Origin: Rhizomicrobium sp.
Lineage (GTDB): Bacteria > Pseudomonadota > Alphaproteobacteria > Micropepsales > Micropepsaceae
DNA: 64,000 nucleotides
Assembly (NCBI GenBank): GCA_037200985.1
Contig: JBBCGJ010000001.1
Location: forward strand, 62,001 to 126,000
Direction: 5' to 3'
The notes under the pieces were generated by a model. It was not told the DNA's origin, searched no databases, and was given only the letters and a program-made list of their open reading frames with translations. Of this stretch, positions 34,907 through 50,202 are shown one piece after another (position 1 is the first letter of the stretch; each line of letters begins with the position of its first letter). A program made the translations under genes and the position numbers.

Positions 34907-35254
34907 CTACCAGTCCAGATAGGAAATTTCGTTGTCGCGGACCCAGTGCGCGCGGTCGAGATGCGTGCGGACGACGTTCAGCGCCCAGGCGGGATGCTCG
35001 TCGACATCGATCCGGAATATGGCGCGCGCCATCTCGCGCTCAGACGCGCCCTCGAATTCCGCGTTCAGCAGCCAGTTATACGTGCTGAGATGCTGCTTGT
35101 CGTAATCCGTCAGCGCGTCGGCCGAGGGACAGACGTTCCACAGCCGCACCGCATTCTCCGACGCGCCTGCGATTGCATCGTCCCGCAGCGCCCGGTCGGC
35201 CTGACCCGCCTCGCATAGGGCAAGACGCTCGCCGAGATCGGCGGCGGCGCTCAC
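34907..35254 (-). CDS. small DUF2285-like protein, copy 1 (oxygenase-linked)
   Basis: 115 residues, helical, soluble. Conserved pattern: VRLWNVCPSADALTDYDKQHLSTYNWLLNAEFEGAS, FRIDVDEHPAW, VVRTHLDRAHWVRD and a terminal LDW. The pattern resembles DUF2285-type proteins, some of which bind DNA, but the match is from memory and only tentative. It starts with GTG overlapping the stop of the CmcJ-like oxygenase gene (GTGA). A paralogue at 40338 sits directly downstream of the AtsK-like oxygenase, so a functional link to oxygenases is likely. Confidence 0.75.
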   Translation of the reverse strand: MSAAADLGERLALCEAGQADRALRDDAIAGASENAVRLWNVCPSADALTDYDKQHLSTYNWLLNAEFEGASEREMARAIFRIDVDEHPAWALNVVRTHLDRAHWVRDNEISYLDW

Positions 35255-36096
35255 GGCGTGGGTCCGAAGAACACCATCGCCCGCACCTCGATGCTTTCGC
35301 GCGGCAGCGCGGTCGGCGGCGTCGTCGGATCGTCGAACCCGGTATGCGGTGCAAAGCGCGCCGGGTTGGTGATGTCGGAATCGTATCCCTTGATCAGCAC
35401 GACTTCGTCGCGCTCAAGGCGCGGGAAGTAAAACCAGCGATGCTTGGGATTGTATTGGACGGCATAGGTCTCTCCCACCTTGTCGCGATAGATGAGGTCG
35501 CTGGGGATCAGGTCTTCCCTCGCCAGGGTGCGTCCGTCGAGAACCGCGAGCGGCGTATCCTCGAGCGGCCCGCGGATCGGCCGCCAGACGTTCACCTCGA
35601 TGAAGCGATAGCGCAGCCGCTCGACCGCCTCTTCCCAGGTCAGGTTCTCATGTGCCCGGCGGACGCCCGAGAACTCGGTGTAGTCGTTGTGAACCCGGCG
35701 GACCGGCTCGCGCATGCCGGCGACGCCGTCCTTGGCCTTCGGAACCGATCGGATCGTATGATCGAAGATCGCGACCTTGTCGCCGCCGGTCTCGCGCTTC
35801 AGGAGCGCCTCGATCTCGGGATAGTAGACGTTGCGCAGCTCGTCCTCGTCGTAGAAGTCCGACACGCGGCTTTCGTGGCGGCGCAGCGCGAAGCCCTGTT
35901 CGTCCAGCGACAGTTCGTCGGCGACGGCGCGGCCGTCGCGGATCAGCACGTTCTCGATGCTGTTCACCTCGCCGGAGCGCGGCGAGACGCCGGGCGGCGG
36001 CTCGAAAGTATAGTTGTACGGCTTGATGCCGGTGCGGATCTGATAGTGGAGCGTTGCCCGCACGCCGCTGAGCGAGTCGAGGTGGTGAATGTTCAT
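35251..36096 (-). CDS. CmcJ/NvfI-family oxidoreductase (Fe/2-oxoglutarate-type)
   Basis: 281 residues. Matches the CmcJ/NvfI/AsaB family: N-terminal LHYQIRTGIKPYNYTFEPPPG, RDGRAVADELSLDEQGFAL, EALLKRETGGDKVAIFDHTIR, RRVHNDYT (iron-ligand-like His and Asp), VNVWRPIRGPLEDTPLAVLD, and HRWFYFPRLERDEVVLIKGYDSD. Members modify secondary metabolites (hydroxylation, desaturation or related steps); many are misnamed methyltransferases. Strong SD GGAGG. A 25-bp dyad lies 45 bases upstream. Overlaps the small DUF2285-like gene. Substrate unknown. Confidence 0.85.
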   Translation of the reverse strand: MNIHHLDSLSGVRATLHYQIRTGIKPYNYTFEPPPGVSPRSGEVNSIENVLIRDGRAVADELSLDEQGFALRRHESRVSDFYDEDELRNVYYPEIEALLKRETGGDKVAIFDHTIRSVPKAKDGVAGMREPVRRVHNDYTEFSGVRRAHENLTWEEAVERLRYRFIEVNVWRPIRGPLEDTPLAVLDGRTLAREDLIPSDLIYRDKVGETYAVQYNPKHRWFYFPRLERDEVVLIKGYDSDITNPARFAPHTGFDDPTTPPTALPRESIEVRAMVFFGPTP

Positions 36097-36141: not shown

Positions 36142-36166
36142 ATACTCTACTTAGTCAATAGACTAT
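36142..36166. promoter_or_regulatory. island regulon dyad, site A
   Basis: ATACTCTA-N9-TAGACTAT. It is 45 bases from the CmcJ-like start (minus) and 98 bases from the flavoprotein start at 36265 (plus), in their shared divergent promoter region. One of seven sites with identical 8-9-8 spacing. Confidence 0.8.
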
Positions 36167-36264
36167 TGCCTGCGTTCGGTGCATGGCATGGCCGCAAAAT
36201 CGCGGGGCGCCTGCCACAAAAGTCGGGATGCGCCGTTGTCTGAAAAACCACAGGAGGAGCGACG

Positions 36265-37665
36265 GTGAATCGGCAGGATGTGGCGATTTGCGGGAACGGC
36301 GCGGCATCGGCCGCCTTGTTCCGCGCCCTGGCGCGGAACGCCCAAGGCCCATTGGCCGTCACCATCGTGGGATCAGGCCCGCACGCCGCAAAGGGCGTTG
36401 CCTATGCGACGGAAGACCCTGCGCATGTGCTCAACGTCCCGGCTGAAAAAATGTCGGCAGACGCCCAGGAACCGGACCAGTTCCTCGCTTGGCTTGCGCA
36501 GCAGCAGATTCATGTCCCCGATTGGGCCCACAGCTTCGTCCCGCGCGAATTGTACGGTCGCTATCTCGTGGACCTGGTCGAGCAGACGCGGCTGCAGTTC
36601 GGCGGGAAGATCGACTTGAACATCGTGTCGTCCGAGGTTGTCGGTCTCGGAAGACAGCAGGGCGGGTGGTGCGTCTTCCACGCCGCCGGCGTTCTTGCCG
36701 CCGACAGCGTCGTTCTCGCGACCGGTCACGGACCGCCGCAGCCGCTGCTGCAGTCGTCCGATGACGCGGTCTCGCATGCGATCGTCGACGACCCCTGGAC
36801 GGCATGGTCGGGCGAACCCACGGCGCGCGTTCTCATCGTCGGCAGCGGCCTTACGGCGATCGATACCGCCTTGTCTTTGATCGGCCGGGGACATCGCGGA
36901 AAAATCGTCCTGATGTCGCGCCATGGGCGGTTGCCCCAGATCCATGTCGCGCACGGCGTGGGCGCGGCGCTTCCCGGTCCTTATCCCGTCCGGTCTTCGG
37001 TCCTTCTGCAAAGTCTGCGTTCGGCGGTGAGGAGAGGTGCACCGGCGCCGGAATGGCAGGCCTTCATCGATGCGATGCGCCCGCATTGGCCGGAGGTCTG
37101 GGCGGCCCTGGGCGAAGCGGACAAGCGTCGGGTGCTGCGCCATGGCCTTTCCGCTTTCAACACGCACCGCCACCGCGTTGCCCCCCATCAGGGCCGCCAG
37201 ATGGCGGAGGCCATCGCCGATGGGCGGGTCGAAGTCCTTCGCGGCCGCCTTGTGACGCTGACGGCCCGCTGCAATTCGGTCCTGGCGCGCATCGCCACGC
37301 CGACGGGCCGGCTCGAGGCGGTGTTCGGTCGGGTGGTGAACTGCAGCGGCCCGAACTCCGATGTCGAGCGCAGCCCCGGAACACTGCTGAAAACCCTGAT
37401 CGCGCGCGGCCTGGCGCGGCCGGGACCGGCCAATCTCGGCATCGGCGTGGATGACAGCAACCGTGTGCTCGATCAGGACGGCGCCGCTCAGCAAGGCTTG
37501 TTCGCCATGGGCGCGCTGACGCGCGGCGCGTGGTGGGAAACCACCGCCATGCCGGAGATCGCCCAGCAGGCCCGCCGGATCGCGCGCGCCGTGCTCGCGC
37601 AAAGGGAAGCGCCGGCGCAACGCGCGGCGGGCGTTTCCGCTGGACATACTATACTGGCACGATAG
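36265..37665 (+). CDS. FAD/NAD(P)-binding oxidoreductase, COG4529 family
   Basis: 466 residues. N-terminal FAD_NAD-binding domain with CGNGAASAALFRAL, then GVAYATEDPAHVLNVPAEKMSA, the hallmark of the COG4529 group. A second nucleotide loop is LIVGSGLTAIDTAL near residue 192. The C-terminus has GLFAMGALTRGAWWETTAMPEI. Members are uncharacterised flavoproteins, often near sulfur or siderophore metabolism genes. GTG start at 36265 with AGGAGGAG six bases upstream. Its final codons overlap regulatory site B. Confidence 0.86.
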   Translation: MNRQDVAICGNGAASAALFRALARNAQGPLAVTIVGSGPHAAKGVAYATEDPAHVLNVPAEKMSADAQEPDQFLAWLAQQQIHVPDWAHSFVPRELYGRYLVDLVEQTRLQFGGKIDLNIVSSEVVGLGRQQGGWCVFHAAGVLAADSVVLATGHGPPQPLLQSSDDAVSHAIVDDPWTAWSGEPTARVLIVGSGLTAIDTALSLIGRGHRGKIVLMSRHGRLPQIHVAHGVGAALPGPYPVRSSVLLQSLRSAVRRGAPAPEWQAFIDAMRPHWPEVWAALGEADKRRVLRHGLSAFNTHRHRVAPHQGRQMAEAIADGRVEVLRGRLVTLTARCNSVLARIATPTGRLEAVFGRVVNCSGPNSDVERSPGTLLKTLIARGLARPGPANLGIGVDDSNRVLDQDGAAQQGLFAMGALTRGAWWETTAMPEIAQQARRIARAVLAQREAPAQRAAGVSAGHTILAR

Positions 37666-37670
37666 ACTTT
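37646..37670. promoter_or_regulatory. island regulon dyad, site B
   Basis: ATACTATA-N9-TAGACTTT, 37 bases upstream of the SDR start. It covers the stop codon of the preceding flavoprotein gene, so the operator is partly coding. A -10-like TTATAC (37669-37674) overlaps its right end. Confidence 0.72.
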
Positions 37671-37707
37671 ATACGACCGCGTTGACGACGGCCGGCAACA
37701 GGAGCGC

Positions 37708-38427
37708 ATGATGACACAAAGCGTACTGGTCGTTGGCGTCGGTGCCCGGGAGGGATTGGGCGCCGCGATTGCCAAGCGGTTCGCCGCCGGCGGCTTCTCC
37801 GTGACGATCGCCGGCCGCAACGCGACGAAGCTGGCGCAGACGGCGAGGGCGCTTGGCGCCGACGTCGAAGCCCTGGTCGGCGACGCGTCCGATCCCGCCG
37901 ATGTGGCGCGCTTCGTCGCCGCCGCCAACCGGCGCGCGCCCTTGGCGGTCGTCATCCACAATGCCGGCAGCAACCAGCCGGCGCCCTTCCTGAAGGTCGC
38001 GCCGGAGACGTTCGAACAGCATTGGCGCGAGCATGTGCTGGGCGGATTTCATGTCGCGCAGAAGGCGCTTCCCGTACTGCTCGGAAACGGCGGCGGTTCG
38101 CTGTTTTTCACCGGCGCATCCGGCAGCCTGCGGGGCAAGGCGAATTTCGCGCCTTTCGCGGCGGCGAAGGCCGCGCTCAGGGCATTGGCCCAGAGCATCG
38201 CGCGAGAGTTCGGACCCAGGAACATTCACGTCGGGCACATCGTCATCGACGGCGGCATAGGCGGCGAACGTCTCCTGTCGCGCCTGCCGCTACTGCGCGA
38301 GCAGCGCGGACCGGACGGCTTGCTCGACATCGACGCCATCGCCGAAACTTATTGGGTCCTGCATCATCAGCACCGCAGCGCCTGGACGCTGGAGCTCGAT
38401 CTGCGGCCCTGGGCCGAGCCGTTCTGA
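37708..38427 (+). CDS. atypical SDR-family protein (Tyr to Phe in the active site)
   Basis: 239 residues. SDR fold: nucleotide loop GVGAREGLG instead of TGxxxGxG, NAG at 85-87, and GASGS. The catalytic YxxxK reads FAAAK (Phe150, Lys154). This Phe variant occurs in an SDR subgroup and may mean altered or lost redox activity. The C-terminus HHQHRSAWTLELDLRPWAEPF is a known ending for this subgroup. Strong SD AGGAG; ATG 37708 or 37711. Regulated by site B by inference. Confidence 0.85.
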   Translation: MMTQSVLVVGVGAREGLGAAIAKRFAAGGFSVTIAGRNATKLAQTARALGADVEALVGDASDPADVARFVAAANRRAPLAVVIHNAGSNQPAPFLKVAPETFEQHWREHVLGGFHVAQKALPVLLGNGGGSLFFTGASGSLRGKANFAPFAAAKAALRALAQSIAREFGPRNIHVGHIVIDGGIGGERLLSRLPLLREQRGPDGLLDIDAIAETYWVLHHQHRSAWTLELDLRPWAEPF

Positions 38428-38437
38428 GGCCGCCGGC

Positions 38438-38707
38438 ATGCGCCGCTTCTATGCCGGAATCGCACGGACGCTCGCCGATGCGTTTCGCCGGCCGCCGGAG
38501 TTCGGCGTTTCATCCGATGCCGTGCCATACGGGCCGCGGGTCGGGGTCTGCGCATGCGAGTGCCGGTCGGCGGGCGGCTATCAGTGGCTGTATCCGGGGC
38601 TGATCCTGCCCATGGGCGGCTTGGGCGACGGCGGATGCGGCTGCGCCGGTCGCGGCTGCGACGTCCGCGCGCCCCTCGACGGAGCGGATGTCAGGCTTCG
38701 TCCCTGA
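38438..38707 (+). CDS. possible small cysteine-rich protein
   Basis: 89 residues, starting 10 bases after the SDR stop, so it could be translated by coupling. It has five cysteines in CACEC and GCGCAGRGC blocks separated by a hydrophobic stretch (YPGLILPMGGLG). I recognise no family. Its end overlaps the convergent hydrolase gene by 17 bases. It may be a chance frame in GC-rich DNA. Confidence 0.35.
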   Translation: MRRFYAGIARTLADAFRRPPEFGVSSDAVPYGPRVGVCACECRSAGGYQWLYPGLILPMGGLGDGGCGCAGRGCDVRAPLDGADVRLRP

Positions 38708-39776
38708 GCGCGCAGATTCCGGGTCCTGAGGCAAACCCCTGCTTTCTGGGGCGAGCCGCCGGCAGACCGGCGATGGCCTGCGCCACACGCCGGACGGCGA
38801 CATCGGCCGCCGGAAGCGCGCCGCCCAGCAGCATGAAGTCGTGGATCATGTCGGGGAAATAGAGGGTCTCGACCGGAACGCCGTTCTCCCGCAATCGTCC
38901 GGCATAAGCGGCCGCTTCGTCGCGCAGCGGATCGAACCCGGCATAGAGGACGACCGACGGCGGAAGCAGGCTGACGTCATAGGCGAACAGCGGCGAGAGG
39001 CGCCACAGGCCCGGCTTGCCGTGGCCGGCAGCATAGTTCTGGCGGTACCAGCGATGCGTCTTGTCCGTGAGCAGATAGCGGTCGCCCATGGCCTTGTGCG
39101 ACGGCATGCAGGCCGACATGTCGAGACACGGATAAAGAAGAATCTGGCGATGGGGCTGATAGCCCGTCGCCTCGTTGCACTCCGCCAGACAGACCGCGGC
39201 GGCGAGATTGCCGCCCGCGCCGTCGCCGGCAAGGCCGATGCGATCGGGATCTATTCCGAGCCAGCCCTGGTTGGCATGTGCCCAGCGCAGGGCGGCGCGC
39301 GCGTCCTCGAAGGCCGCCGGAAAGGGGTGCTCGGGGGCCAGACGATAATGCACATAGATGACGATGCCGGCGGTCGCGTTCGCGAGCTGGCGGCAGAGCG
39401 GTTCGTAGATGTCGAACGTCCCGGCCGTCCAGCCGCCGCCGTGCAGAAAGAGAAGGGCGGGCATGGCCTTTCGGCCCGTGCTGCCGGCCGGACGGATGAC
39501 GCTCACCGCCGGCCCGTCGCCGCCGCGGGGATGGACATGAAAGACGCTGTCGACCGCCACGCGATCGGCCAGAAACGGCTTGCGGCACGCCTCGTAGCGC
39601 CGCCGAAACTCCTCGATATCGTCGAAAGGCTGCGGTGCGCGGCACGCGAGCTGCGCGATCACGTCGAGGGCCGCCGATGCCGGCTGGCCGGCATGCGCTT
39701 CCCAAACCAGACGCGGTTCCGCAGACGGCACAGGAATCGCGGGCGCGCTCCGCGTCCAACCGGCGTCCTGCCTCAT
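38691..39776 (-). CDS. HSL-type alpha/beta hydrolase homologue lacking the nucleophilic serine
   Basis: 361 residues, hormone-sensitive-lipase family. Oxyanion motif HGGGW (112-116), HYRLAPEHPFPAA, then the elbow reads GDGAGG where active enzymes have GDSAGG: Gly186 replaces the nucleophile. Asp282 (GFDPLRDEA) and His312 (IHDFML) of the triad remain. It may be a catalytically dead or repurposed member; a base-calling error is possible (one codon, GGC). SD GGAGG precedes the ATG and site C is 12 bases upstream. Confidence 0.86.
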   Translation of the reverse strand: MRQDAGWTRSAPAIPVPSAEPRLVWEAHAGQPASAALDVIAQLACRAPQPFDDIEEFRRRYEACRKPFLADRVAVDSVFHVHPRGGDGPAVSVIRPAGSTGRKAMPALLFLHGGGWTAGTFDIYEPLCRQLANATAGIVIYVHYRLAPEHPFPAAFEDARAALRWAHANQGWLGIDPDRIGLAGDGAGGNLAAAVCLAECNEATGYQPHRQILLYPCLDMSACMPSHKAMGDRYLLTDKTHRWYRQNYAAGHGKPGLWRLSPLFAYDVSLLPPSVVLYAGFDPLRDEAAAYAGRLRENGVPVETLYFPDMIHDFMLLGGALPAADVAVRRVAQAIAGLPAARPRKQGFASGPGICALRDEA

Positions 39777-39788
39777 TTCGGCCTCCGA

Positions 39789-39813
39789 ATAGTCTAGTAC
39801 ATCGATATACTAA
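39789..39813. promoter_or_regulatory. island regulon dyad, site C
   Basis: ATAGTCTA-N9-TATACTAA, between the divergent hydrolase (12 bases) and the rrf2 gene (62 bases). It ends 14 bases before the rrf2 -35 box, a position fitting activation of rrf2 or control of the hydrolase. Confidence 0.75.
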
Positions 39814-39827
39814 CCGGTCTCGTCGTA

Positions 39828-39856
39828 TTGCGATAGGGCCGTCGGCTGGCTATACA
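39828..39856 (+). promoter_or_regulatory. promoter of the rrf2 regulator gene
   Basis: TTGCGA (39828-39833), 17 bases, TATACA (39851-39856). Predicted start near 39863, leaving about 13 bases of leader that still contain the SD CTGGGG (39865-39870). Site C lies just upstream. Confidence 0.65.
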
Positions 39857-39875
39857 GGGCGCAGCTGGGGATCAA

Positions 39876-40337
39876 ATGCTGTCAAACAAAGCCAAATACG
39901 CGTTCAAGGCGATGTTCGCGCTGGCGCGCCTTGCGCCGGGCGAGCTGTTGCAGTCGTGGGGCATTGCGACGCAGGAAAACATCTCGAAGAAGTTTCTCGA
40001 TCTCATCCTTTTGGAATTGCGGGGTCAGGGCCTGATCCGAACCGTGCGGGGCCAGCACGGCGGCTATGCGCTGGCCAAGCCGCCGAGCGAGATCACGCTT
40101 GGCGAGATCGTCCGGATCATCGATGGCCCGCTGGCGCCGATCGCCTGCGCGAGCGTCACGGCCTATCGCCGCTGCAAGGACTGCAAGGACGAGGCGAATT
40201 GCCTGGTCCGCCAGAGCATGCGTCGCGTGCGGGACGCGGCGTCCGACATTCTGGACCACACCACGCTGGCGAGCGCCCTGTTGATGGAGAAGGCCCGAAA
40301 GACGCCACAGAAGCAGAAGCGCCGCACCGCCGCCTGA
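39876..40337 (+). CDS. Rrf2-family transcriptional regulator with four clustered cysteines
   Basis: 153 residues. Winged helix of Rrf2 type: LSNKAKYAFKAMFALARL, ISKKFLDLILLELRGQGLI, RGQHGGYALAKPPSEITLGEIVRIIDGPLAP. Then Cys91, Cys100, Cys103 and Cys109 (spacing 8-2-5), different from IscR but suited to binding an iron-sulfur cluster or zinc. Rrf2 proteins include IscR (Fe-S) and CymR (cysteine/sulfur control). It is the only DNA-binding regulator clearly encoded in this island and the best candidate to bind the seven 25-bp dyads. Basic C-terminal tail. Confidence 0.9.
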   Translation: MLSNKAKYAFKAMFALARLAPGELLQSWGIATQENISKKFLDLILLELRGQGLIRTVRGQHGGYALAKPPSEITLGEIVRIIDGPLAPIACASVTAYRRCKDCKDEANCLVRQSMRRVRDAASDILDHTTLASALLMEKARKTPQKQKRRTAA

Positions 40338-40652
40338 CTACCAATCCAGCATCGGAAACAAGGTGTCGGCGATCCAGTGCGCGCGCTGCAGATGCGATCG
40401 CACGACGCGCTGCATGCGATCGCGGTTCGCGCGCGGATCGATGCGGAAGATCTCCTGCGCGAGCTCCGCTTCCGAGGCGCCTTCCGATTCGTCGTGCAGC
40501 AGGCGCGCATAGATCGCGATATGGCGCCGGTCGTAATCCGAGAGCGCGTCGCTCCAGGGGCAGGGCCCCCAAAGCCGGATCGCCGCCACAGGGCTTTCGC
40601 CGGCTTCGGCAGGCATGCCCGCTTGCAGCATTCGAGAGGCGGTTCCGGACAT
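40338..40652 (-). CDS. small DUF2285-like protein, copy 2 (oxygenase-linked)
   Basis: About 104 residues. Paralogue of the protein at 34907: AIRLWGPCPWSDALSDYDRRHIAIYARLLHDESEGAS, FRIDPRANRDRMQRVVRSHLQRAHW and the same terminal LDW. Start unclear; ATG 40652 is used here, with 40631 and 40616 as alternatives. It lies 64 bases downstream of the AtsK-like gene on the same strand and abuts the rrf2 stop codon. Function unknown; both copies follow an oxygenase gene. Confidence 0.7.
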   Translation of the reverse strand: MSGTASRMLQAGMPAEAGESPVAAIRLWGPCPWSDALSDYDRRHIAIYARLLHDESEGASEAELAQEIFRIDPRANRDRMQRVVRSHLQRAHWIADTLFPMLDW

Positions 40653-40716
40653 CGTCGTCAATCCCGAAAACAGCCGGGCGTTCGCCGCCGGCCGACTAGA
40701 AACAACGCATCGCCCG

Positions 40717-41643
40717 CTATTCGGCCGCGATCTTGAGGTCGGGAGCGCGCACCTCCTTGCGGCGCGTGACGCTCGATCTGCCGTCCACACTGACCGGCAC
40801 GTCGCCGTCGATGGTGACGCGGTGCAGTTCGCGCGCTTCGGTGAAGTCGCCGATGCCGTAATGCTGGGTGGCGCGGTTGTCCCAGATGGCGACGTCGCCG
40901 AGCGCCCAATGCCAGCGCACCGTGTTCTCCAGCCGCGTGATGTGGTCCTGGAAGATGGCGATGAGACGCGCGGAATCGTCCCTGTTCAGCCCGACGATCT
41001 TCTGCGCGAAATTGCCCAGTACCAGCGTGCGCTCGCCGGTCTCCGGATGGACGCGGACGAGCGGATGCTCCGTTTCGTAGATCGTGGAGGCGAAGACGTT
41101 GGTGTGACGCTTCAGGCGATCCGCCGTCGCGTCGGGGCGCGTGGCGGCGTAGTCGAAGGCGTTCGTGTGCAGCGCCCAAAGCTTGTCCGCAAGCTCGCGC
41201 AGCGGCACCGGCAGGTGCTCATAGGCGGCGGCGGTGTTGGCCCACACCGTGTCGCCGCCCTTGGGCGGCAGATGGACGGCGCGCAGGATCGATGCCAAGG
41301 GATAGGCGTCCACGAAGGTCACGTCGGTGTGCCACTGATTGGCCGCGTAGCTGCCGTCCGAGATGATGTTGAGGGCGACTTCGGTCCCCTCGATCTTCGG
41401 GACGGTCGGATGCGGTACCAGATTGCCCAGCAGCTTGCCGAAGGCCTCTTGATCCGCATCGGTCAGGTGATGCTGGTCGCGAAAAAAGATGACCTTGTGC
41501 GTGAAAAGCGCCTGGCGGATGGCCGCCACGGTCCCGGCGTCGAGATCGCCGCCGAGCCTGATGCCGGATATCTCGGCGCCGATCCGCCCGGCGACGGGCC
41601 GATGCTTCAGTTCGGTGTCCTTGATCTTCTCATGCAAACCCAT
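40717..41643 (-). CDS. atsK: AtsK-like Fe(II)/2-oxoglutarate-dependent alkylsulfatase (TauD family)
   Basis: 308 residues. TauD-fold dioxygenase; iron ligands His105, Asp107 (QWHTDVTF) and His261 ([12 protein letters not shown]), with Arg275 near the end for 2-oxoglutarate. The stretches [47 protein letters not shown] and [20 protein letters not shown] follow Pseudomonas AtsK, which oxidatively cleaves alkyl sulfate esters to aldehyde plus sulfate. Taurine dioxygenase is the alternative, but these blocks favour AtsK. SD AGGAGA. Followed by the small DUF2285-like gene. Confidence 0.82.
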
Positions 41644-41869
41644 GTCGGTCTCCTGGTTGACGGTATCGAGGAAAGGTTCGGCCGGGTCGGGACAGTCCGC
41701 ACGCCCCCCGCCTTCGGTGTGGCGATGTTCGTCGAGCGGATCAGGATGGCCGAGACGTCGCCGGCCGCCCCCGCGAACAGGATGGCAGGCGTCGACAGCG
41801 CGGCATGCGAATTGCTCCCCATCCTTTTCACGCCGCCGTACCCACCGCGTCTCTCCGATCTTACCATAT

Positions 41870-41894
41870 ATACTCTATCATTCAACTAGACTAT
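41870..41894. promoter_or_regulatory. island regulon dyad, site D
   Basis: ATACTCTA-N9-TAGACTAT, the same arms as site A. It is 67 bases from the small exported-peptide ATG (plus) and 226 bases from the atsK-like ATG (minus). Directly followed by the promoter at 41896. Confidence 0.8.
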
Positions 41895-41895
41895 A

Positions 41896-41924
41896 TTGCC
41901 TTTTCGGCTGCGCGGCGATATTGT
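41896..41924 (+). promoter_or_regulatory. promoter of the small exported-peptide gene
   Basis: TTGCCT (41896-41901), 17 bases, TATTGT (41919-41924), one base after dyad D. A regulator on the dyad would touch the -35 box. Predicted leader about 30 bases to ATG 41962. Confidence 0.5.
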
Positions 41925-41961
41925 TGGTCATGAGCGCCGCGGCCGTCGTCAGGGGAGATTC

Positions 41962-42108
41962 ATGCGCAAATTCAGCACGTCCGATCTGATCGGCTATGCG
42001 GTGTTCGCGGCGCTGTTCCTGGCCGTGGCGGGGTTGCGCCCGGCACACGCCGTCGATCCGGGCGCGCAGATGAAGCCCGGATCCATCGTGGTGCGCCTGC
42101 CGAGATAG
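41962..42108 (+). CDS. 48-residue exported or membrane peptide
   Basis: MRKFSTSDLIGYAV start, hydrophobic core to residue 25, then RPAHA|VDPGAQ, a good signal peptidase site leaving an 18-residue mature peptide (VDPGAQMKPGSIVVRLPR). SD AGGGGAGA before ATG 41962. Own promoter and dyad D upstream. Unknown function; could be a periplasmic helper of the TonB system or a signal. The strong ribosome site and operator argue that it is real. Confidence 0.6.
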   Translation: MRKFSTSDLIGYAVFAALFLAVAGLRPAHAVDPGAQMKPGSIVVRLPR

Positions 42109-42130
42109 GCGCCGCGACCGGCCGCCCGCG

Positions 42131-42562
42131 TCAATCGTCCGCGGCGTGCGGATCGATCTCCCGGATGGGCAGGTCCCAGTGGTTCAGGGTCAGTTCCCAT
42201 CGCCTCTGCTCATCGCGTTCCAGTGTCGTCCGATCGGGGAAGAGCTGGCGCTCGACCTCCCGTTCGTGCGTCGTGGCGGCATAGTCCGGATATGTGATCA
42301 CGATGCGATAGTCCCAGCGCGAATCCTCGCTCGTGTGAAGGCCGGGTCGATCCACGGTATAGGCCGTGACATATCCGAGCTGCTTCTCGCGATCGAGAAT
42401 GGCGATCTGGTATTTCTGGAATATCTTCCACCATTCGCTCTGGTGGCCGTATTGAATCCGGTAAACCCACTCCACCTGATATGACGTGCCGGCCCCGGCA
42501 TGGCTTGCGCCCGTGAGCGCCAACAGGGCGACACAGGCGGCCGATAGCGTTCTGCGATACAT
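42131..42562 (-). CDS. periplasmic protein of Dabb/NIPSNAP-like size, unknown function
   Basis: 143 residues with signal peptide MYRRTLSAACVALLALTGASHA. Mature part: EWVYRIQYGHQSEWWKIFQKYQIAILDREKQLGYVTAY, DSRWDYRIVITYPDYAAT, ERQLFPDRTTLERDEQRRWELT, a two-half alpha/beta pattern like dimeric ferredoxin-fold proteins. Start ATG 42562 gives a clean signal peptide. It follows the TonB receptor gene by 64 bases on the same strand, so likely a periplasmic partner of that uptake system. Function unproven. Confidence 0.75.
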   Translation of the reverse strand: MYRRTLSAACVALLALTGASHAGAGTSYQVEWVYRIQYGHQSEWWKIFQKYQIAILDREKQLGYVTAYTVDRPGLHTSEDSRWDYRIVITYPDYAATTHEREVERQLFPDRTTLERDEQRRWELTLNHWDLPIREIDPHAADD

Positions 42563-42626
42563 GGATGACCTGCCTTCCGATACGGAGTGAACGGCGGCGA
42601 CCGCGCTCGCCATCGCCGCCTCGTTC

Positions 42627-44981
42627 CTATTCCACATGCGCGTCGAAGGTGACGCCGAACGTCCTTGGGTCGCCCAGCACGCCGACGACCGGGGTGATGG
42701 CAGACGCGCCGCCGATGCCGATCAGATAGCGCTGATCGGCCAGATTCTTCGACCAGAAGCGCAGTGCGTATTTGCCGTCGCTCGTCCGCACGCCGATGCC
42801 GAAATTGGTCAGCCCATAGGCGTCCTGATAGGCATAGGGCGAGACCGGATTGTACAGCGACGTCTTGGAACGGAAGGTCTGGTTCAGGTAGGTGAAACCG
42901 GTGAAATCGCCGTCCAGCGGCACCTCATAGTTCACGTTGAGCTGCGCATTCCACTTCGGCGCGCCCGGAAGCTGATAGCCGGACAGGTTCACCGACTTGG
43001 TGACGTTGGTCAGCTCGATCGGCGCCGGCGCGTCGTCGTAGGAAACGAACGTCGCGTCGTTATAGGCGCCGCTGAGCGAGATCGTCAGATTGTCGAGCGG
43101 CTGGTAGGTGGTCTCCAGTTCGACGCCGCGCTGGCGCACGCTGGCCGCATTGGTCAGGAAGATCTTCGTCGTCGGACCCGTCGTGACCGCCGCCGATGCC
43201 TGATAGTCCGAAATGTCGTTCCAGTAGAGGTCGAGATTGGCGATCAGCCGTCCGTCCAGCCAGGTCGTCTTCACGCCGGCTTCGTAGTCGGTGGCCCTCT
43301 CCGGCTTGATGATGACGGGGATGCCGGGCGCGGCGGTCGTGTTGATGCCGCCCGATTTCTCGCCATGGCTCACGGAAAAATAGGCGAAGATGTTCTCGTC
43401 GATCTTGTAGGACGGATTGATCAGCCAGGAGACGGAGCCGAAATCCTTCTGCTGGGCGACGGAGAACGGTCCGCCGAAGCTGGCGATCACCGCATTGCGC
43501 GTGGCAAGCGCCACGCCGGTGAGCGGCGCGCCGCCGAACGACGTGGCGACGTCGGAACCGGCCTTGTGCTCCCAGGTGTAGCGCAGGCCGCCGGTGATTG
43601 TCGCGGCGTCGGTGACGTGCCAGGTGCCTTGCGCGAATCCGGCATAGCTGTCCGTCGTGGCACGGCCGAACTGGTCGTATTCCACGCCGTTCAGGAGCGC
43701 CGGCGGGGCGGCCGGGTTGCCCAGAAGGAACGCCGAGGCATCCGAGAAAAAGATGTCGCGATTGTTGCTGAGCACGCGCTCGTGCAACAGGTAGGCGCCG
43801 CCCTGGTATTCGAAGGTCTGGCCCGTGGGCGAGGCGACGCGCAATTCCTGCGAATATTGCGACACGTCCACGTCATAGCCGCCGCGGAAGATCGGGAAGG
43901 GCGACAGATCCGAGTCGTTGTAGGGCCGGAAGCGCAGGCTGCGGAACGCCGTGATCGACGTGATCGTGTGGTCGGCGACGGTCCAGTCCGCCTGATTGGA
44001 GATGCCGTTGACCGAGGAGTGGGTGATACCCTGGGTATCGAGGTTGGCGCCCTTGGTCAGGTCGAAAATCGGCGTGTAGCCGAAGACGCCCTGCAAAAGC
44101 TTCGACCAGCCCACCCGCGGCGCGCCATTGGCAAAGTTCGGGTCGGTGATGGCGGGATAGTAATTGTTGATCTCATCGGTCTGGTTGTGCTCGATGATCA
44201 GCCGATCGCGGAAGTCGCTCGTGGGCGTGAACAGCAATTGGCCGCGCACCGACCAGCGGTCGGTATCGAGCAGGTGGTCGTCGTTGAAATTGTTCTTGAT
44301 CCAGCCATTGCCCTTGTCGCCCGATACCGTCAGGCGGAAGGCGAGTTCGTCATCGATGATCGGCGCCGTCACATTGGCGCGAATCTGCTCCCGGTCGTGG
44401 TTGCCGTAACTGACTTCGAAATTCGCTTCCGGCGTGAAGCTCGGTTCCTGGGTCGTGATCACGACGGCCCCGATGGTGGTGTTCTTGCCGAGCAGCGTGC
44501 CCTGCGGGCCGCGGAGAATCTCGACGTGATCGAGATCGACGAAATCGAACCAGCTGAAGCCGACATGGGTGAACACGACGTTGTCCACGATCAGGCCGAC
44601 GCCCGATTCGACGCCGTCGAAATTGGCGTTGCCGCCCAGACCGCGGATCGAGAATTGCGACACGCGGGTGTTCTGCTGCACGGCTGAGAAATTCGGGACC
44701 TTGTCGGCGTAGTCGGCGATACGGTCCGCGTGTTCGAGCTTCAGGTTGTCGCCGGCGATGAGGGAAATCGGAAGCGGGACGTCCTGGTTGTTTTCCGCGC
44801 GGTGCCGCCCGGTCACGACGATGGTTTCGACGCTTTCGATCGCGGCGGTTCCGCCCCCATCGGCATCCGCGGCGTGCGTCCTGGACGCGAGGAGCACGGC
44901 ACTGCCCGCCAGCAACGCCAATCGGATGGACGAGGATTTTGCTCCGGCGCGCGTCGCGCCGGCCGAATGAAATGAAGACAC
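42627..44981 (-). CDS. TonB-dependent outer-membrane receptor
   Basis: 784 residues. Signal peptide (SSSIRLALLAGSAVLLASRTHA), plug domain (NQDVPLPISLIAGDNLKLEHADRIADYADKVPNFS, FSIRGLGGNANFDG, EILRGPQGTLLGKNTTIGAVVI) and a 22-strand barrel with GGLRYTWEHK and ERATDYEAGVKT blocks, ending in GDPRTFGVTFDAHVE. It imports a scarce ligand across the outer membrane with TonB energy. In this island the ligand is probably an organosulfur compound or sulfate ester (inference). GTG start 44981 with AGGGG; dyad E is 46 bases upstream. Confidence 0.94.
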   Translation of the reverse strand: MSSFHSAGATRAGAKSSSIRLALLAGSAVLLASRTHAADADGGGTAAIESVETIVVTGRHRAENNQDVPLPISLIAGDNLKLEHADRIADYADKVPNFSAVQQNTRVSQFSIRGLGGNANFDGVESGVGLIVDNVVFTHVGFSWFDFVDLDHVEILRGPQGTLLGKNTTIGAVVITTQEPSFTPEANFEVSYGNHDREQIRANVTAPIIDDELAFRLTVSGDKGNGWIKNNFNDDHLLDTDRWSVRGQLLFTPTSDFRDRLIIEHNQTDEINNYYPAITDPNFANGAPRVGWSKLLQGVFGYTPIFDLTKGANLDTQGITHSSVNGISNQADWTVADHTITSITAFRSLRFRPYNDSDLSPFPIFRGGYDVDVSQYSQELRVASPTGQTFEYQGGAYLLHERVLSNNRDIFFSDASAFLLGNPAAPPALLNGVEYDQFGRATTDSYAGFAQGTWHVTDAATITGGLRYTWEHKAGSDVATSFGGAPLTGVALATRNAVIASFGGPFSVAQQKDFGSVSWLINPSYKIDENIFAYFSVSHGEKSGGINTTAAPGIPVIIKPERATDYEAGVKTTWLDGRLIANLDLYWNDISDYQASAAVTTGPTTKIFLTNAASVRQRGVELETTYQPLDNLTISLSGAYNDATFVSYDDAPAPIELTNVTKSVNLSGYQLPGAPKWNAQLNVNYEVPLDGDFTGFTYLNQTFRSKTSLYNPVSPYAYQDAYGLTNFGIGVRTSDGKYALRFWSKNLADQRYLIGIGGASAITPVVGVLGDPRTFGVTFDAHVE

Positions 44982-45027
44982 GTAAATACCCCTGCTCTAG
45001 CTGCTGCAACGCCACGCACTTATGTTG

Positions 45028-45052
45028 ATAGTCTATCAACAAACTATAGTAT
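45028..45052. promoter_or_regulatory. island regulon dyad, site E
   Basis: ATAGTCTA-N9-TATAGTAT, 46 bases upstream of the TonB receptor GTG. Nearly the same distance as site A from its minus-strand target. Confidence 0.78.
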
Positions 45053-45180
45053 GAATAGGGACCCGGGGTCGGGCGGTCAATAGGATTGTTCCCGCCGATC
45101 CGCACGTGGAAGCGAAGGGACGCGGCAATGGCGGAGGTTGGAGCGGGCGAACGCCCGCATCGTTTGGAGCCGTCGCCGAT

Positions 45181-45205
45181 ATACTATATTTTGCGAGTAA
45201 ACTTA
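45181..45205. promoter_or_regulatory. island regulon dyad, site F
   Basis: ATACTATA-N9-TAAACTTA, 157 bases upstream of the NtaA/DszA-type monooxygenase ATG. The right arm is the most diverged of the set, but the spacing is exact. Confidence 0.62.
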
Positions 45206-45362
45206 GAGTGCGTCATGGCTCGCAGCGTCTTTCCTCGTCCCCGACCGTTGCCGGCGCGAAACGGACCGACGGACTTTTCTTCGGCGCGGGCGACACTACT
45301 TCTAGACTTGCGCGTCCGCATACAGGCCGCATCGCGCCCAGCAGGATGAAGGAACGTCTCCC

Positions 45363-46709
45363 ATGAGCAGCACACGGCAACTGAAACTCGGCGCCTTCAT
45401 GCGTCCCGTCGGAATCCATACCGCCTGGTGGCTTTATCCGGGCGCCTATCCGGACGGCAATTTCAACCTGAAGCATCTGGTGCGGTTCGCGCAGAAGTTG
45501 GAGCAGGGGAAATTCGACGCCTTCTTCATGGCCGATCACCTGGCGGTGCTGAACATGCCGATGTCGGCGCTCAAGCGCAGCGCGACGGTCACCTCGTTCG
45601 ATCCGCTGACCCTGCTGCCCGCGCTGGCGATGGTGACGGAGCGCATCGGCCTCGTCGCCACAGCGTCGACGACCTACAACGAGCCCTATCACGTCGCGCG
45701 CAAGTTCGCCTCGCTCGATCACATCAGCGGCGGCCGCGCGGGATGGAATCTCGTCACCTCCGGCAATCCGACGGAAGCGTGGAATTTCGGACGGGACGAG
45801 CATTGGGAGCACGACACCCGCTATCGCCGGGCACGCGAGTTCTTCGACGTCGTGACCGGGCTGTGGGACAGCTGGGCGGACGACGCCTTCATCCGCGACA
45901 CGAAGAACGCTGTCTATTTCGATCCCGACAAGCTGCACGTCCTCGACCACAACGGCGAATTCCTGAAAGTGCGCGGCCCGCTCAACGTCGCCCGGCCGGT
46001 CCAGGGCTGGCCCGTGATCGTGCAGGCCGGCGCATCGGAGGCCGGCAAGCAGATCGCCGCCGAGACCGCCGAGGTCATCTTCGCCGCGGGCGGGCGGCTG
46101 GCCGACGCGCAGCGCTTCTACGCGGACGTGAAAGGCCGGCTCGACAAACTCGGCCGGCCGCGCGACCACCTGAAGGTTCTGCCCGGCGCGCTGGTCGTGG
46201 TCGGCGACTCGGATGCGGAGGCGCGCCGCAAGCATGAGCTTCTGGACAGCCTCGTTCATGCCGACAGCGGGTTGCCGAACCTGTCGATGCGGCTGGGCAC
46301 GGACGTCTCCGGCTTCGACCTCGACGGGCCGCTGCCGTCGGACCTTCCCGAGACCAACGCCAGCCAGAGCGGCCGCCAGGCGCTGATCGACCGCGCCCGG
46401 CGGGAGAATCTCACCATCCGCCAGTTGGCGAAGATCGTGGGCGCCTATGGCGGGCTTGCCTTCGTCGGCACGGCGAAGACAATCGCCGACAAGATGGAAG
46501 AGTGGCTCTTCAGCGACGCCTGCGACGGGTTCAACATCATGTTCCCCACCGTGCCGCAAGGTTTGGACGAGTTCGTCGATCAGGTCGTGCCGGAGCTCCA
46601 GCGCCGCGGCATCTTCCGGCGCGAATATGAGGGCACCACGCTGCGCGAGAATCTGGGCCTGCCCCGGCCGGAGAACCGCTTCTTCGCCAAGACGGCCGTG
46701 CCGGCGTGA
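45363..46709 (+). CDS. NtaA/SnaA/DszA-family FMN-dependent monooxygenase
   Basis: 448 residues, bacterial-luciferase-like TIM barrel. Family blocks: GAFMRPVGIHTAWWLYPGA, LEQGKFDAFFMADHLA, SFDPLTLLPALAMVTERIGL, SGGRAGWNLVTSGNP and VIVQAGASEAGKQIAA. Relatives attack nitrilotriacetate, dibenzothiophene sulfone (DszA) or other S/N compounds using FMNH2 and O2. In this island a C-S cleaving role is likely but unproven. A flavin reductase partner is not seen. SD AAGGAA. Overlaps the DOPA-dioxygenase-like gene by 4 bases. Confidence 0.9.
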   Translation: MSSTRQLKLGAFMRPVGIHTAWWLYPGAYPDGNFNLKHLVRFAQKLEQGKFDAFFMADHLAVLNMPMSALKRSATVTSFDPLTLLPALAMVTERIGLVATASTTYNEPYHVARKFASLDHISGGRAGWNLVTSGNPTEAWNFGRDEHWEHDTRYRRAREFFDVVTGLWDSWADDAFIRDTKNAVYFDPDKLHVLDHNGEFLKVRGPLNVARPVQGWPVIVQAGASEAGKQIAAETAEVIFAAGGRLADAQRFYADVKGRLDKLGRPRDHLKVLPGALVVVGDSDAEARRKHELLDSLVHADSGLPNLSMRLGTDVSGFDLDGPLPSDLPETNASQSGRQALIDRARRENLTIRQLAKIVGAYGGLAFVGTAKTIADKMEEWLFSDACDGFNIMFPTVPQGLDEFVDQVVPELQRRGIFRREYEGTTLRENLGLPRPENRFFAKTAVPA

Positions 46710-47074
46710 CACGATCCTCGGACCCCGAGACGCAGATCATCGAGGGCTTCCACGCCCATGTCTACTACACGCCGCAGACCAAGCCGATCGCCGCCCGGCT
46801 GCGCGAGGCGATGGGCGATCATTTCACCGTGACGCTCGGCCGCTGGCATGACGTACTGGTCGGACCGCACACCGAGCCGATGTATCAGGTCGCCTTCGCG
46901 CGCGAGGAATTCCCCAGGCTCGTGCCCTGGCTGATGCTGAACCGCGAGGGCTTGAGCATCCTCGTGCATCCGCTGACGGGCGACGACTACGAGGATCACG
47001 CGACCCACAGCCTGTGGCTCGGACCGCCGCTGCCGCTCAACCTCGATGTGCTGAGGGCAGGGCATGACGCCTGA
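46706..47074 (+). CDS. DOPA 4,5-dioxygenase family protein
   Basis: 122 residues. Family pattern: IEGFHAHVYY with the metal-type His pair, VGPHTEPMYQVAF, VPWLMLNREGLSILVHPLTGDDYEDH. Plant and fungal members cleave DOPA to betalamic-type seco-DOPA; bacterial members are uncharacterised extradiol-type enzymes. It overlaps the monooxygenase stop by 4 bases and the aminotransferase start by 11 bases, so the three are one operon. A catecholic or sulfonated aromatic substrate is only a guess. Confidence 0.86.
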   Translation: MTRSSDPETQIIEGFHAHVYYTPQTKPIAARLREAMGDHFTVTLGRWHDVLVGPHTEPMYQVAFAREEFPRLVPWLMLNREGLSILVHPLTGDDYEDHATHSLWLGPPLPLNLDVLRAGHDA

Positions 47075-48155
47075 CGGCGTGACGCGGCGTGCATGGCTCG
47101 GCGCCGCCGCGGCCGGCAGCGTCGTGCTCTCCACCGCGAGCGAAGCGGCATCGATGGTTCCCGCGCGTCTGTCGCTGAACGAGAATCCATTCGGCCCCTC
47201 GCCGCTGGCCCGCCGCGCGATCCTGGAGCAACTGGACCAGGCCGATCGCTATGTCGGCGGCGAGGCGCGCGCCCTGGAAGAGCAGATCGCGGCCGTCGAA
47301 GGCGTCTCCGCCGATCAGATCGTCCTGGGCGAAATCCTCGACGCGCTGGGTCTGCAACTCGCGTTGGACGGCGGCCCCGGCGGCGAGTTCGTCTATTCCG
47401 AGCCCGGCTATACCGCGCTGGTCGATGCGGTGGCGCCCGGCGGCGGCGTGGTCGTCGGCGTGCCGCTGAACGACCGGCTGGAGAACGATCTTCCCGCAAT
47501 CGCGGCGCATATCACGGCGCGGACGCGCGGGGTCTATCTCGTCAATCCGCACAATCCGAGCGGCACGGTCAGCGAGACTGCCCCGTTCGAGGCCTTCCTG
47601 CGCGCGGCCGCCGCGAAGACGACGGTCATCGTGGACGAGGCCTATCTCGAATTCGAACCGGACTTCGCGGATCGCACGGCCGTCGCGCTGACGCGGGAGG
47701 GCGCGAACGTCGTCGTCTTCCGCACCTTCGCGAAGGTGTACGGCCTGGCGGGCTTGTCCATCGGCTATGCCGTGGCGCCGAAACCGCTCGCGGCCTCGCT
47801 GAAGGCGAAAGGGCTCGGCGCGCCGCACGAACTCAACCGCCTCGCGCTGGCAGCGGCCTCGGCAAGCCTGCGCGATTCCGGCTACGTCCCGGCCGTGCGC
47901 GCCAAGGTGATCGCCGAGCGCCAGGAATGGAACGCGCTGCTCGACGGCCTCGGCATCCGCCGCAGCGACTCGCGGGGCAATTTCGTCTTCTTCGAAACGG
48001 GCCGGCCCCATGAGCCGTTCGCCGCCGCCCTGCTGGCGGAGGGCATCGAGATCGCGCGGGCCTTCCCGCCGCTCGACCGCTGGGCCCGCATCTCCATCGG
48101 ATTGCCGGACGAGAACGCGCGCGCCCGCGCCGCCGTGCGCAAGCTGCTGGCCTGA
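47064..48155 (+). CDS. Tat-exported PLP-dependent aminotransferase (HisC-like)
   Basis: 363 residues. The N-terminus has a twin-arginine signal (TRRAWLGAAAAGSVVLSTASEA), so the folded holoenzyme is exported to the periplasm. Fold type I: LSLNENPFGPSP, NPHNPSGTVS, VDEAYLEF and the PLP lysine in FRTFAKVYGLAG. HisC-like enzymes move amino groups between amino acids and keto acids; a histidinol-phosphate role is unlikely outside the cytosol. SD AGGGCAGGGC. Third gene of the operon; site H follows its stop. Confidence 0.87.
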   Translation: MTPDGVTRRAWLGAAAAGSVVLSTASEAASMVPARLSLNENPFGPSPLARRAILEQLDQADRYVGGEARALEEQIAAVEGVSADQIVLGEILDALGLQLALDGGPGGEFVYSEPGYTALVDAVAPGGGVVVGVPLNDRLENDLPAIAAHITARTRGVYLVNPHNPSGTVSETAPFEAFLRAAAAKTTVIVDEAYLEFEPDFADRTAVALTREGANVVVFRTFAKVYGLAGLSIGYAVAPKPLAASLKAKGLGAPHELNRLALAAASASLRDSGYVPAVRAKVIAERQEWNALLDGLGIRRSDSRGNFVFFETGRPHEPFAAALLAEGIEIARAFPPLDRWARISIGLPDENARARAAVRKLLA

Positions 48156-48166
48156 GGCCGGCTGGA

Positions 48167-48191
48167 CAACTCTATCAATCTGATAGAATAT
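48167..48191. promoter_or_regulatory. island regulon dyad, site H
   Basis: CAACTCTA-N9-TAGAATAT, 12 bases after the aminotransferase stop and 59 bases before the serine acetyltransferase ATG. It suggests that the cysE-ssuA-ssuD unit has its own regulated promoter. Confidence 0.65.
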
Positions 48192-48250: not shown

Positions 48251-49210
48251 ATGAGAGAGTCTTCAAGAGTGTCGGTTCGCGACGAGCCTCCCAGATCGTT
48301 CGACGACGCGCCGGACGCGAACGGCCCGACGGACACGCTGAATCTGGACACCGTCGTCGCCGAACTGCGCCGGTCGCGCGAGGTCACGCACAACATCCGC
48401 GAGGGCGGGATTGCCCGGCGGCTTCCCTCCAGCGCGGCCATCGCCGAGATCGTCGAAGGGCTGTCCGCCGCGCTCTTCCCCACCCATTACGGCCAGCCGG
48501 AGCTGAGCGGCGAGCGCATCGACGGATTCGTCCGCGGCATGCTGCAGGACATGCTGGCGGCGCTGGAGGAACAGATCCGCCGCGCCCAGCCGCCCGCCGG
48601 CGACGCGGCGGAACGCGAAGCGGCCGACCGCGTCGCGCGCGACATCGTGGCCGCCTTCGCGGCGCGGCTTCCGGCGATTCGCGCGCTGCTCGTCGGCGAC
48701 CTGCAGGCGGCGTATGAAGGCGATCCCGCCGCGACGACGGTGACCGAGATCCTGCTCGGCTATCCCGGCATGGTGGCCGTCATCCACTACCGGCTGGCGC
48801 GCGCCCTGCATCTGCTCGGCGCGACGCTGATCGCGCGGTTGATCTCCAACGTCGCCCATTCCCGCACCGGCATCGACATCCATCCGGGCGCCGAGATCGG
48901 CGCGAGCTTCTTCATCGATCACGGCACCGGCGTGGTGATCGGCGAAACGGCCGTCATCGGCGACCGCGTGCGGCTCTACCAGGCCGTGACGCTGGGCGCC
49001 AAGCGCTTTCCCGTCGACCGCGACGGCATCCTGGTGAAGGGCATTGCGCGCCATCCGATCGTCGAGGACGACGTCGTGATCTATGCCGGCGCCACGATCC
49101 TCGGGCGCATCACCATCGGCCGCGGCTCGACCATCGGCGGCAATGTCTGGCTGACGCAAAGCGTGCCGCCGGGCAGCAACATCACTCAGGCGCAGACGCG
49201 CGATGTTTGA
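48251..49210 (+). CDS. cysE: serine O-acetyltransferase (CysE/EpsC type)
   Basis: 319 residues, long form with about 150 helical N-terminal residues (LFPTHYGQPELSGERIDGFV) and a C-terminal left-handed beta helix with hexapeptide repeats (GIDIHPGAEIGASFFIDHGTGVVIGETAVIGD, LYQAVTLGAKRFP). Makes O-acetylserine, the acceptor for sulfide in cysteine synthesis, linking the island to sulfur assimilation. O-acetylserine is also a sulfur-state signal in many bacteria. It overlaps ssuA by 8 bases. No cysK is in the window. Confidence 0.9.
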   Translation: MRESSRVSVRDEPPRSFDDAPDANGPTDTLNLDTVVAELRRSREVTHNIREGGIARRLPSSAAIAEIVEGLSAALFPTHYGQPELSGERIDGFVRGMLQDMLAALEEQIRRAQPPAGDAAEREAADRVARDIVAAFAARLPAIRALLVGDLQAAYEGDPAATTVTEILLGYPGMVAVIHYRLARALHLLGATLIARLISNVAHSRTGIDIHPGAEIGASFFIDHGTGVVIGETAVIGDRVRLYQAVTLGAKRFPVDRDGILVKGIARHPIVEDDVVIYAGATILGRITIGRGSTIGGNVWLTQSVPPGSNITQAQTRDV

Positions 49211-50177: not shown

Positions 50178-50202
50178 ATCGTATATCGAAGGTGAAAATC
50201 CC

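Follow-up and report, generated by a model that had tools for sequence, protein, structure and literature searches.

Seven short interrupted dyads lie among the genes of an organosulfur-type island in Rhizomicrobium sp. (contig JBBCGJ010000001.1, positions 62,001 to 126,000, a stretch of 64,000 nucleotides here called the window), and the question that they raise is whether they are operators of a single regulon and, if so, which protein binds them. The original prediction had described seven 25-bp dyads with 8-bp arms and 9-bp spacers, and all seven 25-mers were found in the window with exactly the arms and spacers listed. Our analysis makes it quite probable that they are operators of a sulfur-acquisition regulon run by a four-cysteine, CymR-like repressor of the Rrf2 family, for which the best candidate is the protein encoded at 39876 (here called A). 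That the seven sites form a real, sulfur-related regulon with Rrf2-type operators is supported. The dyads end 12 to 226 bp ahead of start codons, at the following window coordinates.

Operator 1, 36142..36166, ATACTCTA-N9-TAGACTAT, between the gene at 35251-36096 (minus strand) and the gene at 36265 (plus strand)
Operator 2, 37646..37670, 37 bp before the short-chain dehydrogenase (SDR) gene
Operator 3, 39789..39813, between the esterase gene (12 bp) and the Rrf2 gene (62 bp)
Operator 4, 41870..41894, 226 bp before the TauD gene, with an MFS-type gene remnant intervening
Operator 5, 45028..45052, 46 bp before the TonB-dependent receptor gene
Operator 6, 45181..45205, weak, three mismatches, 157 bp before the NtaA/DmoA-type monooxygenase gene
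Operator 7, 48167..48191, weak, three mismatches, 59 bp before the serine acetyltransferase-like gene

The two arms of a site were imperfect inverted complements (4 to 7 of 8 positions per site, counted by eye), and the feature common to the seven sites was the half-site ATASTMTA rather than strict inverted symmetry; pattern searches used the 25-bp frame ATASTMTA-N9-TAKASTAT. The claim that all sites lie in promoter regions of organosulfur-type genes was a little generous, as an organosulfur role is not obvious for the SDR, the esterase or the FAD/NAD protein, and the final 20 bp of the preceding open reading frame (ORF) lie within operator 2. The 226-bp gap between operator 4 and TauD would be explained by the MFS-type gene remnant lying between them (window 41656-41816, only C-terminal pieces clearly detected), whose counterpart has 474 amino acids in G084, another genome of the genus (L084:15788-17212, MFS_2).

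A matrix made from the five strong window sites scored the seven sites at 23.9 to 38.1, the next best score in the 64 kb being 9.4, although this measure is partly circular, five of the seven scored sites being the training set. An arms-only matrix was built from 15 strict sites (at most one mismatch) in ten other genomes of the genus, namely the 16 strict sites outside genomes G000, G084 and G028 with the G019 site omitted. With this matrix the seven sites were the top seven in the window (17.3 to 31.7), followed by scores of 11.6 (overlapping 36142) and 8.7, and none of 200 dinucleotide shuffles reached 17.3 (maximum, 15.3). Even this comparison is not fully independent, since a few of the 15 training sites stand upstream of island-gene homologs (Rrf2-A in G011, the esterase in G010 and the monooxygenase in G068). 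The whole 4.64-Mb genome was searched with the degenerate pattern, allowing mismatches, and with the pattern read backwards as the control. At up to two mismatches there were 8 places against 2 in the control, and 5 of the 8 fell inside the 36142-48191 interval. The genome scan proposed with the original prediction, which looked for many equally good sites in unrelated places, thus gave only three others: upstream of a TonB receptor gene (C1:4306988), upstream of a Cys/Met pyridoxal phosphate enzyme of the sulfhydrylase type (C1:1469492) and at a divergent TonB/TauD pair (C1:4323689). At up to three mismatches the excess was lost (14 matches against 18). Of the four further matches at this level, one was between solute-binding and LysR genes (4316825) and one upstream of a TauD enzyme gene (3138379); the other two were set aside, one upstream of a sigma-factor gene that adjoins a TonB receptor (4635274) and one within a long coding frame that looks spurious (2906257). 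In genomes of other families, the pattern at two mismatches was mostly below or near the control.

Conservation was expected of true operators by the original prediction, and the sites proved to be kept in G084 and mostly in G028, both of which carry orthologous, rearranged islands with sites upstream of the same genes. In an ungapped comparison of seven pairs centred on the dyads, identity between the own genome and G084 was 90% in the arms (101/112), 39/63 in the spacers and only 45% in the 30-bp flanks (191/420). Per site, the arms were identical at 16 of 16 positions for 39789, at 15 of 16 for 36142, 37646, 41870 and 45181, at 14 of 16 for 45028 and at 11 of 16 for 48167, the last being better kept in G028. 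For the two weak sites, 45181 and 48167, support comes from the matrix and from the counterparts that both G084 and G028 possess, while the G028 counterparts of the TauD and Rrf2 sites were degraded (10.4 and 11.9 bits).

Across 69 genomes of the genus, strict sites numbered 33, in 14 genomes, against 2 in the backwards control. According to a hand tally of their gene partners, 13 precede sulfur genes (TauD, serine acetyltransferase, CysK or CBS type, sulfhydrylase family, TauE, a sulfate porin operon and DmoA-type monooxygenase), 10 precede TonB receptors, 4 precede Rrf2-A or the esterase, and 4 precede other island genes (FAD protein or SDR). Two could not be assigned, one before a small RovC-like protein (G084:471073) and one near an AraC-type gene (G034:C36:136714). 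The target families comprised TauD, Bac_luciferase, Cys_Met_Meta_PP, PALP with and without CBS, SATase_N, TauE, Porin_O_P, SBP_bac_11, NMT1 and TonB_dep_Rec. Because ORFs were called from the longest start, some sites come to lie within their first codons. At two of the 10 TonB sites, a sulfite-oxidase-type molybdenum protein is encoded on the other side (one copy tested). The arrangement, with the dyad between a TonB receptor and this 406-residue protein, was seen at L151 (G084), where the protein contains Oxidored_molyb and Mo-co_dimer, and at L089 (G028).

The candidate regulator is encoded within the island.

Rrf2-family regulator A, 39876..40337, plus strand, cysteines C91, C100, C103 and C109

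Its membership in the Rrf2 family is clear (Pfam Rrf2, 126 bits against a cut-off of 30). The best specific NCBIfam model was CymR (81.3 bits, below the equivalog cut-off of 195), and the cut-offs of the IscR (65.9 of 207.55 bits), RirA (47.7 of 193) and NsrR (46.4 of 182) models were not reached. The AlphaFold model (pLDDT, 87.6) was nearest in fold to CymR (2y75; E, 3.6e-11), and its best matches among solved structures, CymR, RsrR, IscR and NsrR, were all Rrf2 proteins. Five Rrf2 genes of the own genome passed the cut-off. Two of them, A and a paralog that we call B (C1:313404), have the loop C-x8-C-x2-C-x5-C, which was absent from the IscR-like gene and the two others. Close to B are a porin and sulfate ABC operon and a dyad of similar form. 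The four-cysteine loop was present in 38 of 48 aligned proteins, the other 10 being the three remaining own-genome Rrf2 genes and seven outside homologs (L066, which is broken, L042 and L044-L047 were left out of this alignment). In an alignment of 32 chosen relatives, from which L033, L034, L037-L041, L043, L063, L072, L074, L075, L079 and the three other own-genome genes were also left out, C91, C100, C103 and C109 were invariant. These conserved residues suggest a metal, iron-sulfur or thiol sensor, judging from the sequences. In the A/B tree, B formed one group (75/86), while A was not separated from outside homologs; a single A clade was not rejected (p-AU, 0.44), and the tree bootstrap was not quite settled.

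A-type proteins (at least 57% identity, nearly full length) were found in 10 of the 69 genomes. Strict sites occurred in 9 of these 10 and in 5 of the 59 others (Fisher p, 3e-7, uncorrected for kinship). Along the same lines, 30 Rrf2 loci of the genus (10 A and 20 B) gave 30 matrix matches at a threshold of 12, two of them training sites, against 1 in a mirrored control. A dyad stood within 250 bp upstream in 6 of the 10 A loci, one of them weak (12.6), and operator 3, at 39789, probably reflects autoregulation of the 39876 gene. Of the 20 B loci, 15 had a dyad, which in 14 cases lay no more than 210 bp beyond the gene end; a porin signature was present at 10 of the 20, and 9 of these 10 had a dyad. 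The B-type pattern, with AATCTCTA or ATACTCTA half-sites in the same frame, occurred in 23 of the 69 genomes at up to one mismatch (control, 0). A TTGACT hexamer has a fixed place in the spacer of nine B-type sites, and since no constant -10 follows it, an overlap of operator and promoter is not claimed. A second organosulfur cluster in the own genome (C1:4316001-4326434, L092) has both A-type and B-type dyads and contains LysR, an NMT1-type binding protein, a luciferase-like monooxygenase, a rhodanese, a TonB receptor and TauD.

Outside the genus, the same protein group was met in other Alphaproteobacteria, in Flavobacteriaceae and in one Omnitrophota genome. Among 289 sampled genomes of the class, 29 matched the four-cysteine profile at an E value of 1e-30 or lower, 4 of them in the genus. 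All 25 non-genus loci keep the four cysteines, a count that the profile itself favours. A dyad (matrix score of at least 14) was present at 6 of the 25, always 28 to 45 bp before the Rrf2 start, against 1 match in 84 kb of control; these six represent three genera only, and one of these genera has a second member without the dyad. A sulfate-binding-protein signature lay within 1.5 kb in 10 of the 25 loci (the one checked, L175, is SBP_bac_11). In the flavobacterium Zhouia, the Rrf2 gene is followed by the dyad TTAGTCTA-N9-TAGAGTAT, a small gene, two PAPS-reductase-family genes (cysH and cysD type) and a cysN-type GTPase gene; in Joostella and Galbibacter, the order is Rrf2, a weaker dyad and a PAPS-reductase-family gene; and at the Omnitrophota locus L036, it is the dyad, Rrf2 and a sulfhydrylase-family gene. 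The four-cysteine group and the ATASTMTA-N9 dyad are co-located, at part of the loci, in the genus, in three other genera of the class, in Flavobacteriaceae and in Omnitrophota. In the Zhouia genome (L139, L150), where the pattern is not above control genome-wide, dyads also precede ferredoxin-like, flavin oxidoreductase and 1-Cys peroxiredoxin genes.

What was computed directly is the sites with their conservation and gene partners, the presence of the dyad next to some of the relatives, and the conservation of the cysteines; the mechanism that we propose for them is as follows. Dimers of the four-cysteine Rrf2 protein would bind ATASTMTA-N9-TAKASTAT sites upstream of gene starts and, when sulfate or cysteine is plentiful, would repress genes for organosulfur uptake, organosulfur cleavage and sulfur fixation; a shortage of sulfur would relieve the repression. 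A would be the most likely local controller and would repress its own gene, while B, with its very similar operator, would govern the porin and sulfate-uptake operon and may have some sites in common with A. Binding and the signal are what we infer, and so is repression rather than activation, which is suggested by the Rrf2 family.

Several results weigh against this picture. Sites 45181 and 48167, with three mismatches each, are not above background by the pattern alone, because of the count of 14 against 18 at that level. Sigma-70-like sites were no commoner than chance (3 against 1.8 in shuffles), so that an operator/promoter overlap, and hence repression, lacks support from this side. No dyad was found within 1.5 kb of the own genome's two PAPS-reductase-family genes. 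G009 has A and neither a strict site nor a dyad in its A locus, no dyad lay within 250 bp of the A genes in G028, G019 and G061, and a broken, partial A-like gene in G085, a genome with no strict site, would change the association to 9 of 11 if counted. At the thresholds used, 5 of the 20 B loci and 19 of the 25 non-genus loci were without a dyad. The Rrf2 gene of one metagenome-assembled genome (L031) has neither a dyad nor a sulfur gene adjacent, and a dyad lies elsewhere in that genome upstream of a PAPS-reductase-family gene. Finally, genome-wide counts against control in Flavobacteriaceae (4/14, 10/18, 12/8 and 3/3) were not clearly above it; the argument there rests on the sites at Rrf2 and PAPS-reductase loci.

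The original prediction had assigned all sites to the 39876 protein. Sole control by this protein is not supported as stated, nor is a regulon confined to the island: B has a very similar operator, and sites occur elsewhere in the own genome as well as in G034, which lacks the 39876 type. It is conceivable, if rather unlikely, that the seven sites are bound mainly by B, with A in a minor or modulating role. B sites near the porin-sulfate operon share the dyad frame (AATCTCTA/ATACTCTA-N9), and in G034, with B only, strict sites nevertheless stand upstream of a cysK-type gene as well as between TauD and the porin-sulfate operon. On the other hand, the strict ATASTMTA sites are concentrated in A-bearing genomes, the own B site (AATATCTA/AATCTCTA) differs from the island sites, and A has a site of its own, the one whose arms are fully kept in G084. 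Whether A and B share sites or split them, the data favour a partial split, with A as the best candidate for the regulator of the seven.

CysB and Cbl, LysR-type proteins, are the classical sulfur regulators of Gram-negative bacteria and control sulfate, taurine and sulfonate genes. Binding of the dyads by such a regulator, for instance the one at L092:888-1736, is improbable. LysR genes do adjoin sites at 4316825 in the own genome and in G016 (L103, L167), which counts against A; however, the dyad is beside a LysR gene only at a few of the places seen, where that gene looks like a target, whereas it accompanies four-cysteine Rrf2 genes across several families and phyla. The usual LysR box, T-N11-A, is also shorter than the dyad. 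Enteric CysB and Cbl would be similar in function and belong to a different protein family.

Still less probable is an iron-sulfur signal, with IscR or another Rrf2 protein of the own genome as the binding protein. IscR sites of type 1, too, are dyads of 25 bp, their outer bases reading ATA(C/G), and IscR has the Rrf2 fold, as does the 39876 protein. IscR and CymR operators are alike (PMC3828012), which speaks for such a role. In the alphaproteobacterium Rhodobacter sphaeroides, IscR acts as a repressor of iron and iron-sulfur genes, and the isc-suf cluster includes a putative sulfate transporter (PMC4618611, which has a section on this IscR and on iron and sulfur metabolism). Nevertheless, the IscR-like locus of the own genome (1763386) had no dyad within 1.5 kb at a threshold of 9, and the partners of the sites are sulfur and TonB genes, the sites also co-occurring with A and B. 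Most IscR proteins have three cysteines and a histidine, and that of R. sphaeroides has one cysteine (PMC10510648, PMC4618611), in contrast to the C-x8-C-x2-C-x5-C loop found here; IscR targets also differ, and the genome has a separate IscR-like gene. The likeness to IscR noted in the original prediction is hence only a general one, the nearest fold and the best specific score being those of CymR. RirA and NsrR are likewise Rrf2 regulators with cysteine-bound clusters, RirA in Alphaproteobacteria, and clusters in other Rrf2 proteins are held by three cysteines and another ligand (PMC10510648); with three conserved cysteines and a role in iron or nitric oxide regulation, RirA and NsrR are unlike the four-cysteine group. 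That the dyads are chance AT-rich strings picked by eye is hardly credible: 45181 and 48167 do fall within the three-mismatch background, but the weakest of the seven was not reached in any shuffle with the other-genome matrix and the arms are twice as conserved in G084 as the flanks, so that the set stands refuted as chance.

The known system that A resembles most is CymR, the Rrf2 repressor of cysteine metabolism in Bacillus subtilis and Staphylococcus aureus. CymR targets include sulfonate use and cysK (PMC3828012), and a CymR-like regulon of sulfur and cysteine acquisition genes is what the predicted site partners amount to. The B. subtilis cysK fragment contains AATACC (PMC11487621), and CymR-type operators and the island dyads have a common outer ATAC-like start. 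The differences are that the half-site here is ATASTMTA and that targets include TonB receptors, TauD, a DmoA-type monooxygenase and a porin. The loop that holds the four cysteines is missing from the aligned CymR structures, which have no cysteines in that stretch. CymR senses through CysK and O-acetylserine (PMC3828012, PMC2940859), and in a published model its C terminus, with a penultimate Tyr, anchors it in CysK (PMC11487621); the aligned A and B proteins have other tails and show no sign of such an anchor. The conserved cysteines suggest a sensor of their own, instead of, or alongside, a CysK partnership. A CymR-like protein has been proposed in Rhodococcus (PMC8557817, PMC9426449), and neither a four-cysteine Rrf2 regulator of sulfur nor this operator was found described in the open-licence literature, so far as it was available. 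A CymR-like function with a distinct protein group and operator is most likely.

The other genes of the island are listed below.

35251..36096, minus strand, 281-residue protein, no Pfam family found, conserved in the G084 and G028 islands
36265..37665, plus strand, FAD-NAD(P)-binding oxidoreductase-like protein (NAD_binding_9)
37708..38427, plus strand, SDR (adh_short)
38691..39776, minus strand, alpha/beta-hydrolase, LipP1-like esterase (Abhydrolase_3; LipP1, 263 bits, below the cut-off of 350)
40717..41643, minus strand, TauD-family dioxygenase (TauD, 190.6 bits; taurine dioxygenase model, 224, below the cut-off of 313)
42131..42637, minus strand, 168-residue protein with no Pfam family, encoded downstream of the TonB receptor and conserved in G084
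42627..44981, minus strand, TonB-dependent receptor
45363..46709, plus strand, NtaA/DmoA-type flavin monooxygenase (TIGR03860, 562.6 bits, over the cut-off)
48251..49210, plus strand, serine O-acetyltransferase (SAT)-like protein, first of SAT-ssuA-ssuD (EpsC, 157 bits, over the cut-off of 150; cysE, 162 bits, below the cut-off of 211)
49203..50177, plus strand, SsuA-family sulfonate-binding protein (TIGR01728, over the cut-off)
50149..51327, plus strand, FMNH2-dependent alkanesulfonate monooxygenase, SsuD (TIGR03565, over the cut-off)

No ssuB or ssuC permease genes were noticed right beside the SAT-ssuA-ssuD run (48251-51327), for which no dedicated search was made; in G028, an ABC-ATPase-like gene, named by likeness only, adjoins ssuD (L086). 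A small protein family (window 40338-40790 and 34907-35254; L027:10464-10787; L152:4571-4972) adjoins Rrf2-A in G000, G028, G068 and G084. One member has a weak RovC_DNA-bd match, below the cut-off, and a copy in G084 sits at the operator site 471073; the family is a possible accessory partner of Rrf2-A. Farther upstream in the window, two similar ORFs of 192 and 195 amino acids (30960-31538 and 32272-32859) flank an ArsR-like gene and resemble 2H-phosphoesterase (ThpR-type) paralogs, a name given by sight only.

Taken more broadly, the data would fit a widespread and so far undescribed class of CymR-like four-cysteine repressors of sulfur status in Alphaproteobacteria, Bacteroidota and beyond, with an operator shared across phyla and with genus copies that split sulfate uptake from the organosulfur island, a tentative reading for which the case falls a little short of even. 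The four-cysteine centre in such a class would be an iron-sulfur, zinc or thiol switch, and how four cysteines report sulfur status would become a question of its own. If this is true, Alphaproteobacteria and Flavobacteriaceae would have a sulfur switch different from the LysR proteins CysB and Cbl, and many uncharacterised TonB receptors, dioxygenases and monooxygenases could be assigned to sulfur scavenging.

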